DNA from: Astropecten irregularis
Lineage: Eukaryota > Echinodermata > Asteroidea > Paxillosida > Astropectinidae
Length of the DNA: 64,000 nt
Direction of reading: 5' to 3'
Assembly (NCBI GenBank): GCA_963971285.1
Contig: OZ020254.1
Span: 3,968,001-4,032,000 of the forward strand
The number at the start of each line of letters is the position of its first letter. Within the stretch, counting starts at the first letter, position 1. The translations under genes were made by a program, and so were the position numbers. Below, in pieces: positions 22,025 through 41,778 of this stretch. A model generated the notes under the pieces. That model saw nothing but the letters and a program-made list of their open reading frames with translations, had not been told where the DNA came from and searched no databases.

Positions 22025-23403
22025 AAAAGTACTCTTTTACTTTACCAGTAAGACAAAACAGAATGGGTTGGAGTACATGTACATCATGTAACTTACACAA
22101 TCAAGAAGTTGAAGACGAGCAGCAAGTCTGGCAATGGACTCATCAAGTCATCAAGGACACAGACATCTGAAAGAAGGGCACTTCAATTTGGAGACAGTCC
22201 CCTACACAAGTCTGAGCAACAATAATGCTCCCCACAGACTCAGACTAGACAAGCTGTGCTCCAGCCAAAATACAAACCAGGGGAGTAGGAGGAGGGAGGG
22301 GGGGGGGGGTCGCTGGGGTCGCTGGTGGATGGATAGGATATATGAGCACTTGATCAATCCTTGGGTCTAGACCTCTTGTTGCAGACTGTTGGACTGGACG
22401 CTGGGAGTTAATCAAGAACCACTAGGCAGCACTTCAGGGGTTTTATGGAAATCCCCGACATACTCTCGAAAGATTCTGGCACCTTTGGTCGGGGCAGGAT
22501 TTCGTGCACTTCTGACGCAATCAGTTCTTACATGTATAGGCCTACATTACATGCACCTGACGGATTTCACATTTTTGCAGGATTTGTGTTACAACAACTT
22601 GGCCTGATGTGTGGCGCTGCCTTCAGACGAACATGCCCAGACAACAGAAGATTCTCCCAAATGCTATAAAACATCACATAAGGGGGTTGACTTGCCATCT
22701 AGTGCCTTGATGCTTACAACACCACAAACTCTCTGCCTATTCTTGTACTACCATCTGCCAGGCCGCCCGGGCAGGCACCCCATTCATTCCAGTAGTAATC
22801 CCACTGTCATTTCCTTCTCATGTTGACTTTGGCAGGGATTCCTGCCTCAATACCTCACCAAAATAACTCGGCCTTCCTCCCCTAGATCCCAGCATTCAGG
22901 AATTTGACCCTGGATACCAACATGAAGCTGCCTTAATAGACCTCTCTTTCACTTTCTGTCAGATCAAGTAGGCCTATACTGTACATTGTCCTTGCATTCA
23001 CTGTACTGCAATTTTAACACTGTTTTGACATGATTGGTAAAAAGTCCGCCCATACACTATTTTTTGCAATAAGATGTTTTTTTCAGACATTGATTATCTT
23101 GGTGTATGGGCCCTAAATGAAAAATGACCAACAGGTTTCAAAATACTACATGGTCTGCATTCATGTAGCTACCCTAAATAGGCTAGGCCCCTAATTAGTC
23201 AAATAATGATGCTGTTTGGATAATGTACCGGTAATCTACACCCACATACATGATCAATTTGGCACGCATTAATTAATGAATTAACAAGGCTAAGGCATAA
23301 AATATTCAACAAATATTTGTATTCTTAAATTCATGAATAATAACAAAGCATGTACAGTAATCACTCCAAGCTGTACATGTACAGGTACAGTAGGACGGTA
23401 CAA
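22025..23403. other. Non-coding stretch
   Basis: No gene recognised. A G-run of about 11 lies near 22,298-22,308. Overlapping short frames at 22,134-22,826 have no domain resemblance. The last part is AT-rich with ACATGT/AGGCCT words. Confidence 0.5.
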
Positions 23404-23509
23404 GGGACTAGCCAACATTTCAGTGGCTGCATTTCATGTAATTATCAGGGAATGAAGGGACTAGCCCACATTTCAGTGGCTGCATTTCATGTAATTATCA
23501 GGGAAATGA
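23404..23509 (+). repeat. 53-bp tandem duplication
   Basis: Two adjacent, nearly identical copies of a 53-bp unit beginning GGGACTAGCC and containing CATTTCAGTGGCTGCATTTC. The second begins at 23,457. The differences I see are one base inside the unit (CCAAC versus CCCAC) and the end junction. It lies inside the chance frame 23,350-23,799, which it lengthens. Confidence 0.85.
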
Positions 23510-33172: not shown

Positions 33173-35642
33173 ATGTGCTTTTGGAAAACTACAGTGTAAA
33201 TGATTGGATTACAGCCCTTCCAGGAAAACAAACACCACCAATGATGTAATTGTAATATTCCATTAAAGGGGCAACGTTATGACTTCCTTCCCTATGCTTT
33301 AAAGGGACATGTGTAGGCCTACATGTAGGCCTATATTAATAATGATACAAAGCAATTTACATCTGTTGAAACAGGATTCAATTTTCAATCTGACACAATT
33401 TTAAACAAAAATCAGTCAGGGGTGTCAAAATGTGACTATGAACAGTCAGTGACTGAATGGAAAAAATGCTCCACATGGACTGCTACATTTTCAACTCAGC
33501 AACTGTACATGTAGGCCTACAATATGTACACTCAGAACCATGTGTCTTTTCAAGATGCTGTATGTGTATGTGTCATCAGGTAGGCCAAATAGTGCATACA
33601 GTATTATATTCATTCCCTCTAGACAGTGTTGGCATTACATCAAACATGTAAGATGCCATATAACAACTGTCCATGCTCCCTGCTCTAAAGTATTTATACC
33701 ATTTTGAATAGCCAAACGTACACATTTCAAGCAGTAATATAATGTAAAATGTGAACAATTTGCACAAATCATTCACAATATATTTCCACATAAGAACATC
33801 TTTGCACACATGTAGGTACCTACATGCACAAATACAAGTAAAAAAGTGTAATAAACCCTTAAAAAAAATAATAATAATAAAATGGTTTAGGCTTTGTTTA
33901 ATTCAAAAAAGCTGATGTTTTAATGAGTCACAATGCCATAAACTGCACAAAAATTTGTACAGCAGCTCAAAACAGGAGATCCCTGGATGTGTTTACAATT
34001 TACATATATTAATATACCGGTACTTCCAGGGACAAAATTATAATTGCAGTCTCGGTCACATTGTTCAAATTCATCTCTTTTCGGCTGTGTGACAATCTAA
34101 CAGCTTGAAGCTGGGAGGAAATCTGGCCTCCCATCCACCCCGTCCAGCTGTGACCCACTTATACACACAACGCCATGTGGAGGCTAATAATGAATCTACC
34201 ATGGGGATGAAAAAAAAATAATGAAAAGAGAACAAGAAAAGAATCTAAAACCTAGTTTCCCAGTGAGGAGTGAGGAGAAAAAAAAACTCCTGTACTTGGC
34301 CCATCAGCAAATGACGCTGATCTAGATCGGCGTTCACAAATAATAAACTGGGACAAGAGACAGGAGTCGAGTAATAATAAGTTGTAGGGAGGAGAAAAAG
34401 GGGACGGCCAGAGAGCTAGACGGAATAGGAAGCAGCACATGAATGAAGGACGGCCGCTCGGGTTTCAAATGCAATATCTTCACATTCACTCACCTACATG
34501 GCTTCTGTTTCTTTTTATTCTACACTCTACGGAATTTTTTTTCTTGGTAAAAGTGTCAGGTTTATATTATACCCTCAAAATGTACGTGTACAATTTTCTT
34601 TGCAGGTGTAATTCATGAAAGGACAGCTAGGAAATTGCTTGGGTTTTTGGTCCAAATGAAATTGAAGTGACTTTGGATTACAGAAATCTAGTTCACGACA
34701 ATTAGGCCTACACTCTGAATACCGGTACATACAATAGTCACTACTAAAAGTAAATATGTAGTAAGTAAAGAAGCTACATGTACTACTAGTAGTAGTACAC
34801 ACTACTACAAGTAGGCCCTATACACAATAACTGTGTTGCTATCTATACGGTAATTGCACAAATAAGCATATTCAAGCAGTAAATTTAGGAATGAAACAAC
34901 AAACATGTGCAAAACAAGCAGACCGCACAATGTAGGCCTACATGTATGACGGTGACTGTGAATCTCTGATATTACAGGTATTGACTGCATGAGCTCAAAC
35001 ATTCCCCAATTTGTTTCAATTATCTAATCACCAGGAGGTTCCAAGCTCAAATCTCTCTCTCTCTCTCTTTGCTTTCTGCATCTGATGATCTTGCCAAGTT
35101 AATTACGGCTGGACTGCAGGGCCAATGTCAGCTGAACTTCCTTCAGATTCACAGGCAGCCTCCCCCCCCCCCCCCTTCTGCCCCCTCCCCTCATCCTGCC
35201 TTCAGATACTCGTCCAAACCATCTTGGAATGTCCCCGAGTCATCCAAAGGTCAATCAATGCAAGACAGTTCCCACTTGCACTCTTATCAGATGCACGCTC
35301 TTCCTCCGATTTGTTTTCTTCTTCAATATTCCTCTCCTGCCCTTCTCTATCACCCTTCCGTCGTCGGCCTTTACCATGGCCGACACATAGCATCTCATCC
35401 CCCCCCCCCAGCGAAAAACTAAATAACAGCAGTGCTTACAATGTACCTTGAGTACTTGTAATGCCTAATGCATTATGCAATGGTGGGATGGTTGTGGTTT
35501 CCTCCCCATGTATTAAAATATAAAATTAAGGCCAGGTCCTTGGGGCAACATAAGGCCTTGCATAATTCCACCTGGCACCTGCATGCGTGATTAATTAATT
35601 AAGCAATTGGTGCATGTACAGTACATGCATTTCTGAGAGATT
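33173..35642. other. Non-coding stretch; repeat-poor block at 34,040-34,460
   Basis: No gene recognised. The block 34,040-34,460 lacks the dispersed palindromes and contains GGAGGCTAATAATGAATC and GATCTAGATCGGCG words. A C-run lies at 35,162-35,174 and a CT run at 35,053-35,068. At 34,770-34,805 there is a small ACTACTAGTAGTAGT inverted repeat. The two overlapping proline-rich frames at 35,069-35,451 come from the C-rich, pyrimidine-biased stretch. Confidence 0.45.
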
Positions 35643-35820
35643 CCCCCCCACAGAAGTGTGGTAGGGGTCTACGAACGAGTACTTACCTGTAGAGCCACTA
35701 CTTATGCATATTTCCCTAGACCGTCAGGTATTCACGCTAAGAATTGATACAACAGCGCCCCCTATTGACCTACCCACAGTGCCCCGCGGCATGTATGCCA
35801 CGTAAGCATCCTCTTTTCTC
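35643..35820. repeat. DIRS inverted terminal repeat, 3' side
   Basis: The outer 39 bases (35,643-35,681) are specific to this end. The following 139 bases (35,682-35,820, from CTTACCTGTAGAGCC to CCTCTTTTCTC) are the reverse complement of 41,625-41,763 with no difference I could find by eye. Beyond that, a short TCAGGGCGG match continues after a small gap. Confidence 0.9.
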
Positions 35821-35877
35821 GGTTGAACTCAGGGCGGAATGCCCAAACATCGAGAATAGTGGGGAGGAGGGGGGGAC

Positions 35878-35975
35878 GCTCTACAGGTAAGTACTCGTTC
35901 GTAGACCCCTACCACACTTCTGTGGGGGGGAGTCTACTTCACTCGTCTTACCTGTAGAGCCACTACTTATGCATA
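35878..35975. repeat. DIRS internal complementary region
   Basis: Bases 35,878-35,930 are the reverse complement of the element's low-coordinate tip (35,643-35,695). Bases 35,932-35,975 are the reverse complement of its high-coordinate tip (41,735-41,778). The two tips are thus joined head to tail here, as in the internal complementary region of DIRS-1. In the accepted model this region templates the ends and completes a circular intermediate for recombinase-mediated integration. Confidence 0.9.
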
Positions 35976-36289
35976 GACTGGCACCGGCAAAAGGCGGTGG
36001 GTATGCGAGATGCTATTGTATACAGAGAGGGGCACTGTAACTAAGGCAAACCCTGGCATAACTTGTGTGCCCAACTGAGGGCAGGGCAAGGAGGCCAGGC
36101 AAGACATCAAAGTTTCAAAAAACTTATGAAGCAACAGCCTTAGCAAGGAGCAACCAAACACAAGCCCGCCAGGGGCATTTATATGAGGTTGCAACAGCAC
36201 CCATTGCGCTAACACGAGCGGAAGGGGATAATACGGATAGTAAAAAGCCCGAGGGACGACATATTGAATGATATGAGTACATCGGGGTT

Positions 36290-37451
36290 CAAAGAAAATG
36301 TTTGAACAATTGGGGAACTCGCCTATTTCTGCGAGGCCCCAGGAAAAAAAAAAAAACGGGTCTCGGGATGCAGCTCTGGAGGCCATCTCCAGCACTGCTC
36401 TCCCGATCCTGACCTCTGTCCAGAGAGCATCCTTCAGGTAGCACTCCGTAGAGGTGTTTGGGGTTCTCCAGCATGCTGTCTGGATGATACCACCTACAGA
36501 AGCACCCCTAAAGAAGGCCCACCCATGGAGGTAGGGAATGGTCCACCAAACGTGGAAGCCGTTCTGACCTCATGCATCTGGGTTGAACTGGCGGCTCATG
36601 CCAACAGTACAAGCGCAGATGGGGGTATGGCTGAGACTAGCCAGTGAGCAAACATGTTGCGAGAAGCGAGTCCATACAGCGGGGTTGATGAGATAAATAG
36701 CGAGGAATAGGCAGCTCCGAGCGACCTGGTTCAATCGATACACCACTTAAGAGCCATGACCGGGCACCACAAACCGTAGTCCGGCACAGGCGAGAAGGAA
36801 TAGATGACCGGGACAAAGATATCCGGGGGTCAAATATCCTTGGTCAAGGAACCCCAACCTCGGGGTAAGGCAGGCACCACCTGGTTCCCATGGGATGTGG
36901 CATGCCTCCGATGTAAGGGGGTGGTAAAAAGGGCTCGAACAGGGGCCTTAAAAGCGTGGCCAGCACGCTGAAAAGGGTCCCATGCATCAAAAAGCCTGAG
37001 CGACAGGGGAACGAGACAGACGTCCCCCTGAACAACAAGTGGAGAGCCCGATTATCCAACACGAAATGAGGGCCTGAGGGCCTCTGTGAACACCTGCTAT
37101 GGTCGAAAGATGACTCATCGTGTAGGCCGCATGGTCGCTTTCGACTAGGTAGGCTATACCAGAAAATCTGCAACCTCCCCTACAGAAGCATTTAGGGGAT
37201 GCAGAGATCAGATTCAGCACCATTTGGGAAGGGTGATGGAAACCGCTATCATAGACTTTTCTGGTAGATGCCCTGCGGCTGCAGGCTGCAAGAACCGCAG
37301 CTCGCTGTGGAAGGTTAACCGTGTGAAGGGGATGCTTGACACCACCCAGCACGTTAGGTGGAGATCCTGCCGAGCCAGGTGAGGGGAAAAAACCCAAGCT
37401 CGTCAGGAGCAGAATGTCTGTTCTATGCAGAACAAAGACCAGCCGATGCAT
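36290..37451 (-). pseudogene. DIRS tyrosine recombinase remnant
   Basis: The translation near 37,080-37,270 carries STRKVYDSGF followed some 45 residues later by TMSHLSTIAGVHRG. This resembles the N-terminal core-binding region of DIRS-type tyrosine recombinases (S-R-x-Y, a hydrophobic stretch, then a T-x-x-x-HLS-x-I helix). It is placed downstream of the reverse transcriptase/RNase H remnant, as in the family. Catalytic residues of the C-terminal domain are not identifiable to me. It is broken, and no intact product is expected. Confidence 0.65.
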
Positions 37452-37539
37452 TAGGGGGCTGGGCAGTCTGGAAAAACCAGGACTGGCAGAACCAGAATGG
37501 GAGCTATGAGGAGGACTTTACAATCCTGTTCTAGCTTGG

Positions 37540-38780
37540 TCACCACGCGAGGAATGAGGGAAAGGACAAAAAGGCATAAGCCAGCAGCCCGTCCCTCCGC
37601 ATCACCAGCGCATGCATCTGACATGCCTGGGGAATGGGGACCCTCGAGATAGACCAGCAGCTGCTGGTAGCCCTGAGCGTAAATAGATCGACATGGGGTC
37701 GATCTAATAGCCGGAGGAAAGGCAAGGCAATCTGCGTGCGCAGAGACCACTCTGTCGGCCGGATACACCTGCCTGAGAGAGCAGAGCATCGGCAAAGGCG
37801 TTCTCCTCTCCCAAGCGGTGTGCCGCTAAAGGCGTATGCACCGATGGAAGGTGGTTCAAGTGAGTGCACATGGCCGGGCAGACCATGTCTCCCCTCCATG
37901 GCACCACGTAAGAAAACACGGATGTGACGTCGCGACGGACGGGACAGATCAATCCGTAAGATAGGACAGAACAGCCGGAGAGCATTGAATGACTCGAACG
38001 ATGCTCGGGGCTGCACTGGCGTGGGTGGATGGAAGCCCCCAAGCCAGAAAGTGACATGACTGTCGCAACAGATAGAGATAGTTGAGGCCTACAAAAAGGC
38101 GCGGCCCGACACAGTGTTGGGGACGTCCGACAAAAATCGAAGGTGCGGGAACGGCCAAGGCGTGACTAGCACGCGATGGCTCAAGGGTTGAGGCCTCGAC
38201 TGGTAAAGGGAGAGCAGGTGCAGCTGGATGACACTCATCCTTAGCCTGCAGAACATGCCTAACAGACCGGCCATAAGGCCCAGCAGCTTGAGCTAAGCTC
38301 GTGCTGGGGGCATCGTCGCCCGGAGACAGGAATATGCATCGGCAAAGGATTTGGCTGCAATCCTACTCGGGCCGGGAAAGCCTTCTCCGCACTCGCATGG
38401 AGGTTGGAGACTGGGAGAACCACTGGGATAAAAACAAGGTCCCAAGTAAGGTTGAGAGCTGGCACTGCGGCCACGCAAGACTGTCTTACTATGAGCCACA
38501 AGTCGAAGTACATGAGAAACATCATGCTCTGGCGACGCAGTGTGGTCAAAAGGCCAGACACCTACAATGTGGAGGTGGAGCGTCATAAAGTGTTGAAAAC
38601 AGCAGTTGAAAACTGATCCGGTCTGATAAAGCGAGAAGGTACGCTTCCTTCAGAACTAGGCTTGCTCCCCATGCTGGTGATCGGGTAAGCTCGAGGGTAG
38701 ATCCGAGTGTACCTATATGAAAGCGACAAGGCAGAATGAATCTGCTGGGAGATAACAGTTTAGAATCGGGCGCCATGTCC
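37540..38780 (-). pseudogene. DIRS reverse transcriptase / RNase H remnant
   Basis: Recognisable pieces in order along the minus strand: GASLVLKEAY at about 38,668-38,639, matching the palm motif around the first catalytic Asp region of DIRS/Gypsy-type reverse transcriptases; a stretch near 38,160-38,270 typical of the connection before RNase H; RHIRVF near 37,929; and TEWSL (about 37,755) followed by RPHVDLF (about 37,700), the conserved motif downstream of RNase H in DIRS elements. The enzyme would copy element RNA into DNA. It is broken in several places. Confidence 0.75.
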
Positions 38781-38849
38781 CAACCAATAAGGTTGACATG
38801 AACCCCGACTGTGGCCCCTCTTGGGGGTAATACATGTACATGAATTGCC

Positions 38850-41500
38850 CCTTACTCGAGGAGGGACACTTTAAAAGTCTCGAGAGAGAGAGAGGGGCGC
38901 CCTGCTATATCGGACAGCACTGGAGTGGGCTGAACGAGCATTTTCAATGGGGTTGGCCAAAAAACCCGCATGCGTAGCCTCGGGAGATCGGGACCAACAC
39001 GCAACGGTCCGGCCAGCCCTGCAAGTCCTTGGAGGCAGCCTCCTACGGGTCCCACGGCGGGGCCCACAGGAGGCGGGAGAGTAAATGTAATTAACGTCCC
39101 GGCCGGGAAAATGGGCGGGGGAGAAACACAGCCTGGCCTCAGCTGACGTTGCCCTGCGGCAGGCTGGGGCTGTCAAGACGAGGTGATTATAGGGCCACCG
39201 AAAATAACGCGAGTAGAACCGAGTGGGCTACATCGGGGATTCATGACTGATGGCCTGAATCTGCCCCATGCCGAAAATGGGTGTCGGGGCAGGAAGACTT
39301 TTGAGGCTTACCCCATCGGCAGTCCTCAAACTCTTGGCTTTAACCAGCCTGAAGTCTCCAAGCTTCCCTGCAAATGGGAAAAAGACCTCAGCAGGGGAAG
39401 GGCTTTGATACTATCGCGGTCGCCCTGACCGAGATGGAGAATCTAGCACATTGTCCAGACGGGGCAAGGTGCAAGTTTGGGAACACGAGTAATAAAAGAC
39501 TCAGTGAAAATAGGGCAATCAGCGTGTTCAAGGAATCGCTGACTCCTCTTCACAATCAGGAACCCAATATTCCGTGAGGAGCAAGGAGGTGACGCCCAAA
39601 CAACGGCAGGAGGGGACTGCCTTATCCAGCGCACTGTGGACCTTGACCATGAGGGGCTGCTTGGACACCGAGTGCCTCTCATTCAGCTGTCTACTAATCT
39701 TTGTTGTCATCGAGAAAGAAAACTAAAGATAACCGCCGTTGACAATAATAATCGCGCTCCAGAAACGGGTAGGCATGCCATTAAGCAGTGGACATGGACC
39801 CAGAAATTCAATTGACAAACCTGGACCAATGGGATGGCCGGGAAAAAGTTGTCACCGGTCATCGCTGGGCCTGTCGATCCTGCGCGTAAATGACCTGTAG
39901 TCCCACTGTGAAGGTCCCTCCTCAGTGGGGACTGTAATTGAACGAGTCATTTTTGATTTTTTATGCACGAGACAAAGCTCGGACTCTGTAAAGGAAAAAC
40001 CACTGCACTGGAGTCACACTCTCGTCTTCAGATAAATACTCTGACGAGACGATTGTGGCGAACAGGGGTATTCCTGGACGGCAGTATGGACAGGCTGAGT
40101 ACACATACTGTACACCCTGTACATGTGGTGTGGGTTTATGGCTGAATGGCTTAACCAGAGACAATGACTGGTGTAGGCTCAAAACTCAAGGGGACGCCGA
40201 CGCATAGCTTGCGTGCGGCAAACTCCTTTGTCCCCGAGTCACCCAACCGCGACCAACGATCGTGAGTGACTGAGCGTGGAACACGGGAACACCCTGCCGA
40301 TCCACGGTGCCTATCCGATTGAAAAGGGCTTAGCAAAAAATTCACTCCGTGAAAACAAGTCGTCGCCAATGCAGCGTTTGCCGCGGTGGGACCACCTAGA
40401 TCAAAACACGTAGTTGACCGAACCCGGCGAAAATTCGCGCGATCTTCGGTCTGATTTTTTTTTTTTTTTTTTAATACTTATTATTCTTACTTTCGACGGA
40501 CAGCCCCGCGGGGAGACCGAGGAAAGGATCCAGTGCGGCCCGAGTCATCGGGACGCCGGAGCAACAATAAAATCCGAAGAACCCGATCGAAACGAGCGAG
40601 AACGACGGTCCGGGGTAGGCCCAGGCTGGGCCACACGCACCGTCCACAGCCCGTCCGGCCAACGGCGCCCCGAGCCCCGAGGGCTGAGCGTGCGTTGCGC
40701 GGTCGGGGAGATCGGACAAAAAGCCAATCCCGACATCGCGTGGCGCTTGTCACCGTGCCGAGAAGGCCAGTGTGCACCGTGTTCACGGAGCCTCGGCGGT
40801 CAGTCGGTTGTGACTACCCCGGGTCCGAAGGTGCAGAGGGCGTAGGGCACACGGCCGAGCCGCGTTTGCCCTGGCGACCGCCCTTCTTGGGTTTGGCTCT
40901 GGCAGAGCAGGTTAGTTTTACTAGAACCTTGCCAGAGCGCCCCTTCACTTTCTTCGTGCCTTCCGAATTGGCCGCGGACGGGGCCCGGTAGTGGCCCCCG
41001 ACCAACGGAACTGCCAGCATCCCCGGCCGGTTGTGGCTGGGGTTGCCGACTAGGGGACTGCCGCCCGAGTAACGGGTTGTTGTACCCGGCGGAGTCCGTG
41101 CACGACCAAGAGCACCGCGGTCCGCCCCGGGGAATGGTTGTTTTCCCCAGGATTGCGGGACCAGCTCTTTTCCAGACACTTCTGTCCTTCTTGGGTTTGG
41201 CTCTGGCACAGGAGGTTAGTTTTATGGGAACCTTGCCAGAGCCACCTTTCACGTGTACCTTCCTTGTTCCGTCCGAGCTGACCGCGGACGGGGACCGGCT
41301 GAGGTCCCCGACCGGGCCGACGGAACTGCCCGTGCCTCCGACCGACCGGCTGACGGGCAGGGGACTGCCGCCCGGGTAACGGGGTGTACCCGGCGGAGTC
41401 CGTACACGAGAGCACGGACCGCACTGGGGAGTGGTTGTTCACCCCAGGATTTGCGGAACCGGCTCTGTCTGATCGCTCGCACCACAACAACAATACAAAC
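38850..41500 (-). pseudogene. DIRS 5' region, presumed Gag-like part
   Basis: This interval is where the first (Gag-like) frame of a DIRS element lies, upstream of reverse transcriptase on the minus strand. Only short open pieces remain and I recognise no zinc knuckle or other Gag motif, so the assignment is positional. Composition is strongly G+C- and CpG-rich. A T-run lies at about 40,457-40,472. Confidence 0.4.
40882..41470. repeat. Tandem duplication, ~304-bp unit, in the DIRS 5' region
   Basis: Two adjacent copies start at 40,882 and 41,186 with CCTTCTTGGGTTTGGCTCTG. They share AGGTTAGTTTTA, GAACCTTGCCAGAGC, CCGCGGACGGGG, GGGGACTGCCGCCCG and CCCGGCGGAGTCCGT in the same order. The copies have diverged by substitutions and small length differences, so the duplication is older than the insertion or arose in the source element. 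Confidence 0.8.
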
Positions 41501-41624
41501 ATACACAGAAGAAATACTTACTAAAACTCTACAAACGTTGGTACAAAATACCTTTAATACTGAAAGCTCTTTTGCGTGAAATCACGGATGGAACGTAAAC
41601 ACGTCCTACCCGCCCTGACGCTAA

Positions 41625-41778
41625 GAGAAAAGAGGATGCTTACGTGGCATACATGCCGCGGGGCACTGTGGGTAGGTCAATAGGGGGCGCTGTTGTATCA
41701 ATTCTTAGCGTGAATACCTGACGGTCTAGGGAAATATGCATAAGTAGTGGCTCTACAGGTAAGACGAGTGAAGTAGAC
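41625..41778. repeat. DIRS inverted terminal repeat, 5' side
   Basis: Bases 41,625-41,763 are the exact reverse complement (by eye) of 35,682-35,820. The last 15 bases, ACGAGTGAAGTAGAC, are specific to this end and reappear inverted in the internal complementary region. Confidence 0.9.

Follow-up and report, generated by a model that had tools for sequence, protein, structure and literature searches.

A recently spread, coding-dead DIRS family in Astropecten irregularis, very probably mobilised by an intact family carrying the same ends

DIRS-1-like retrotransposons, represented by Dictyostelium DIRS-1 and the DIRS1-like families, carry inverted terminal repeats (ITRs) with end extensions, a 3' internal complementary region (ICR) holding the circular junction, and gag, reverse transcriptase (RT)/RNase H and recombinase genes on one strand; this design and the accompanying replication model are described in the available sections of PMC5633606 and PMC3266345, and those of the former present the DIRS-1 replication scheme as experimentally not fully proven. 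In Trypanosoma cruzi, SIRE is a truncated, non-autonomous form of VIPER, the mobility of which is left open in the available portion of PMC6681497. The stretch of Astropecten irregularis DNA analysed here (64,000 nt of contig OZ020254.1, hereafter the window) contains an element with DIRS-1-like ITRs, ICR and gene order (35642..41778, minus strand, 6137 nt), which differs from the described elements in that it codes for nothing and has 3' and 5' extensions of 40 and 15 nt, respectively. It belongs to a known class of element, yet it is not a plain fossil: the coding-dead family of which it is a member has spread recently, very probably with the enzymes of an intact DIRS family that carries the same ends. 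The closest published case found in the open-access literature is the SIRE/VIPER pair (PMC6681497), in which a gene-less derivative of a tyrosine-recombinase retroelement likewise stands beside an autonomous relative; SIRE is, however, ~435 nt in length with split direct repeats, whereas the window element is 6 kb long, retains ITRs and an ICR and spread after gene death. No coding-dead DIRS family with an intact partner was found among titles and the first lines of abstracts in the open-access literature, a scope in which subscription papers were mostly not covered and Repbase was not searched. Among long terminal repeat (LTR) retrotransposons, the large element Dasheng is non-autonomous and has RIRE2 as its putative autonomous partner, but this pair relies on LTRs and an integrase, in contrast to the tyrosine recombinase and ICR of the element considered here.

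The limits of the window element are set by the points at which copies at other sites stop matching. A 15-nt 5' tip (41764..41778) and a 40-nt 3' tip (35642..35681), neither of which is repeated at the opposite end, enclose the 139-nt 5' ITR (41625..41763) and 3' ITR (35682..35820), all on the minus strand. The ICR (98 nt, 35878..35975, no strand assigned) is exactly the reverse complement of the element's own 54-nt left end joined to its own 44-nt right end, and ITR and junction matches of this length and exactness are not chance. A sequence-only reading of the window had proposed a DIRS element with this ITR and ICR architecture, and the complete agreement of the ITRs (139/139) and ICR (98/98), together with the single-sided tips, bears it out. 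Its inverted matches also hold on realignment, at 139/139 for the ITRs, 98% over 58 nt for the pair 35638-35695 and 35878-35935, and 100% over 44 nt for the pair 35932-35975 and 41735-41778. Its description of 35878-35975 as the joined ends in reverse complement was right, save that the left part comprises 54 rather than 53 bases, and of its limits (35643-41778) the right end stands, while the left end lies one base further out, at 35642.

The same reading had suggested a search for related copies elsewhere in the genome, and such copies were recovered from the 475.7 Mb searched (168 contigs). A 358-nt query from the left end matched over its whole length at 98-100% identity in all 40 places scored, window included, out of 317 candidates. 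With an RT/RNase H query (1101 nt), 40 of 150 candidates were scored. Thirteen places, that of the window among them, are 94-100% identical to the query (group A), and the other 27 are 86-89% identical (group B); a further short piece (75%) lies beside a group B place. The 26 loci fetched comprise 12 of group A, ten of group B and four of a third group, C, the ends of which match the window element, while its interior is mostly ~65-76% and its 5' region 73-86% identical.

The copies are independent insertions. Across 27 loci (window included), the 25-nt flanks differ from locus to locus, with exceptions in L036, L028 and L031. L036 (G000:C14:10402287-10410442) holds a pair of broken copies of group C, 3656 nt apart, which have the same 3' flank and represent a local tandem duplication; the 3' flank of L028 is itself DIRS DNA, and the start of that of L031 resembles a 5' tip. 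The L036 pair is what would be expected had the copies in general arisen by duplication at the DNA level rather than by retrotransposition, but the remaining flanks differ and the break-points fall at the tips over the 25 nt compared on each side, which makes such an origin highly improbable. As a separate observation, near position 8001 of L028 (coding orientation) the 3' tip directly adjoins half an ICR with 7 nt of inner flank, followed by a rearranged DIRS piece, an arrangement suggesting that a tip had recombined with an ICR junction.

Elements of the DIRS family are not known to produce a target-site duplication. Both tips are present in 21 of the 27 loci (L018, L019, L020, L024, L029 and L036 are excluded from two-ended counts), and a flanking direct repeat of at least 4 nt occurs in none of these 21 copies; the longest, of 3 nt, is found in L026, where the shifted end falls inside a lengthened G run. 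Position 2 of the 3' flank is T in 18 of the 21. The two ITRs of a copy are identical in ten of the 21, and the ICR equals the copy's own joined ends in 14. Both ITRs of L038 are five sites removed from those of the window element yet equal to each other, as are those of L032 (four sites), and such shifts in concert indicate that the two ends are made together. The window copy differs from L015 by 0.56% and has 19 private substitutions among 5734 sites when compared with seven group A copies; given these few substitutions and the absence of differences between its ITRs (0/139) or at its junction (0/98), the insertion is young.

Between these undamaged ends, the genes are dead. The proteins of L038, an intact group C copy, detect minus-strand remnants by tblastn in the order gag-like, RT/RNase H and recombinase (best E-values 1.9e-38, 4.8e-33 and 8.0e-46, respectively). 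Relative to L038, frameshifting indels number 34 and in-register stops 11 in the gag-derived DNA (39131..41525, minus strand), 25 and nine in the RT/RNase H-derived DNA (37183..39193, minus), and 11 and three in the tyrosine-recombinase-derived DNA (36357..37388, minus), the last counted over 4537-5447 of L038; the counts for all three regions are alignment-dependent. Pfam searches with ten open reading frame (ORF) pieces of the element gave no hits at E<=1, and the domain identity of the remnants consequently rests on L038. The earlier proposal that RT, RNase H and recombinase motifs lie on one strand in the expected order is thus confirmed by comparison with the intact relative, but not by any Pfam signal of the element itself.

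Many of these breaks predate the spread of the family. Fifteen of the 18 two-ended group A and B copies (all but L023, L028 and L030) were aligned to L038, and every one of them carries the same 15 frameshifting indels and two stops in RT/RNase H, eight and two in the recombinase and seven and two in gag (alignment-dependent as above), none of which occurs in the control L037. Among eight group A copies, variable sites are spread evenly over codon positions 1, 2 and 3 (RT 23/26/29, recombinase 9/12/12); between the intact L037 and L038 they are mostly at the third (RT 29/21/103, recombinase 21/7/70). The differences between groups A and B in RT (window versus L033, 62/43/36, P 0.021) show an excess at the first position and none at the third, and those between groups A and C (window versus L038, 126/112/184) a moderate third-position excess, as is expected if group C is under selection. 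The shared breaks and the lack of a third-position excess at variable sites place the death of the genes before the spread of the family. The N-terminal region of gag remains open over ~150-335 codons in several dead copies; selection on it was considered and dropped, the variable sites being flat (group A 11/8/13, group B 18/14/15). An ordinary fossil, in which an autonomous copy inserted intact and then decayed in place, would also have heavily broken coding DNA. Its breaks would not, however, recur in copies at other sites, and decay in place would have struck the ends too, whereas the ITRs and junction of the window element are undecayed; this explanation is very unlikely. The term "fossil" used in the sequence-only reading therefore misleads, since the dead genes lie in a young insertion belonging to a family that spread after gene death.

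An intact DIRS family with the same tips and junction is present in the same genome, beyond the sight of the sequence-only reading. Group C differs from the window element by ~27-30% overall, but its tips and ICR are 97-100% identical. Among the fetched loci, long open frames are found in L037 and L038, while L035 and L036 are broken. The overlapping frames of L037 and L038 encode gag-like proteins of 788 and 733 aa, an RT of 749 aa and a recombinase frame of 993 aa, and are under codon-level selection. In Pfam, the L038 RT protein matches RVT_1 (E 5.5e-19), and two RNase H models also pass the cut-off; no methyltransferase, a domain that follows RNase H in DIRS-1-like elements, matches it at E<=1, and the gag-like protein has no Pfam match. 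A genome search with the L038 RT protein, in which 60 of 2009 candidates were scored, gave ten places that match it at 90-100% identity over near full length and in which the frame runs without a stop for 749-755 aa; further stop-free DIRS-like RT frames, of 777 and 818 aa, are 54-57% identical to it. Two side observations concern the recombinases: in both L037 and L038 the 993-aa frame overlaps most of the RT frame, and the seven strongest phage-integrase hits lie on contigs C66, C72, C76 and C161 (G000), which may be bacterial contigs or carry other recombinase elements.

Taken with the shared ends, it is very likely that the window element is a near-full-length, non-autonomous, coding-dead DIRS of 6 kb that was mobilised in trans by group C. 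Following the published DIRS-1 model, the element RNA would be copied by the group C reverse transcriptase, and the missing ends would be rebuilt on the ICR. The resulting circle would carry the tip-to-tip junction (it is the junction sequence that implies replication through circular DNA), and the group C recombinase would insert it without target duplication. The element retains its 5' region, tips, ITRs and ICR, with dead gag, RT and recombinase DNA between them. The machinery may alternatively have come from another intact DIRS lineage, or from an intact group A or B relative among the loci that were not fetched, to which the 777- and 818-aa RT frames and the partial scoring and fetching of candidates lend some weight. 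In two such lineages (L040 and L041), the DNA behind the RT contains self-inverted sequence pairs, 55 and 62 nt long, which are laid out like a tip and ICR and are probably the ends of those elements, but these stretches contain no close match to the window tips (one has short, weak matches), whereas L037, L038 and L039 of group C have tips identical to those of the window element, and a source other than group C is unlikely.

Several points nonetheless weigh against group C as helper. Trans mobilisation, the helper role and the circle are each deduced from sequence comparison. Group C may itself now be silent, and, as its inner distance from groups A and B is ~30%, it need not be their direct parent. 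The intact 993-aa recombinase frame has no catalytic-domain match in Pfam, its hits being confined to N-terminal, SAM-like domains of integrases (best 9.7e-5), and the L040 control is not free of similarity near the junction, where short, weak matches occur (the best of them 26 nt at 88%, E 0.003). Candidates were, moreover, scored only in part in each search (40 of 317, 40 of 150 and 60 of 2009).

The likeness to group C is concentrated in the ends. In the group C copies L035, L037, L038 and L039, the tip, ICR, ITR and whole 3' block are 96-100% identical to the window element, while the inner DNA differs by ~30%. The 386-nt 3' block (35642..36027, minus strand) is 97-98% identical to group C, compared to 58-68% just inside; against L038, it differs at nine of 385 sites, and the adjoining 36028-36641 at 187 of 575. 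There are no substitutions in the ICR (0/98) or in the 40-nt tip (0/40) relative to L037, L038 and L039, and one in each (1/98 in the ICR) relative to L035. The 52 nt inside the ICR are 92-94% identical to those of the same four copies, and just inside the block the differences reach 32-42% (over 278 sites only for L039). Since L040 and L041 lack a close match and the group C tips are identical, the tips look lineage-specific, with groups A and B carrying those of group C.

Purifying selection alone, without any exchange of ends, could keep them alike in the dead and intact families, an explanation that is compatible with mobilisation by group C and is itself fairly probable. Group C copies that are 17-25% apart just inside the block (over 263-280 inner sites where L039 is involved) are only 1.6-3.4% apart within it, and so low a distance fits constraint, as few sites would be free to vary. 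Selection alone is less easily reconciled with three sites at which the same two alleles occur in groups A and B combined and in group C (0.37 expected), although variable sites overlap only weakly overall (four columns, P 0.018). With so weak an overlap statistic, the terminal identity was not upheld as proof of end exchange. It is tentatively possible that dead DIRS copies repeatedly re-acquire their ends from the intact family, the whole 386-nt block being swapped in when end-rebuilding during reverse transcription switches to a partner RNA at or near the ICR. Such re-acquisition would explain the sharp drop in identity at about 36027/36028, the levelling of block distance at about 2-3% while inner distance reaches 30% or more, and the alleles common to both families.

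Elsewhere in the element, the 5' region contains two tandem copies of a GC-rich unit of ~304 nt (40882..41451, minus strand), some parts being 85-92% alike in the dead and intact families, and AT skew reaches 0.24 (A > T on the plus strand) at 36001-38000. In the rest of the window, the 40 longest ORFs are 95-160 aa in length, and a 53-nt unit occurs in two nearly identical tandem copies at 23402-23505; no Rfam model reached its gathering score anywhere in the window.

As none of the ten ORF pieces of the element has a Pfam hit, gene-based annotation can mistake a mobile element of this kind for a fossil. Freely drifting RT and recombinase DNA in a spreading family points to the parts that would be required in cis, for which the tips, ITRs, ICR, the 57-nt spacer and the ~52 nt adjoining the ICR on its inner side are candidates, as the 5' region may be. 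If ends are re-acquired from the intact family, the step at the ICR would be able to operate across two RNAs. The dead family and group C would thus provide a natural parasite and its likely helper, with the lineages bearing other tips as controls, for testing the DIRS replication cycle.

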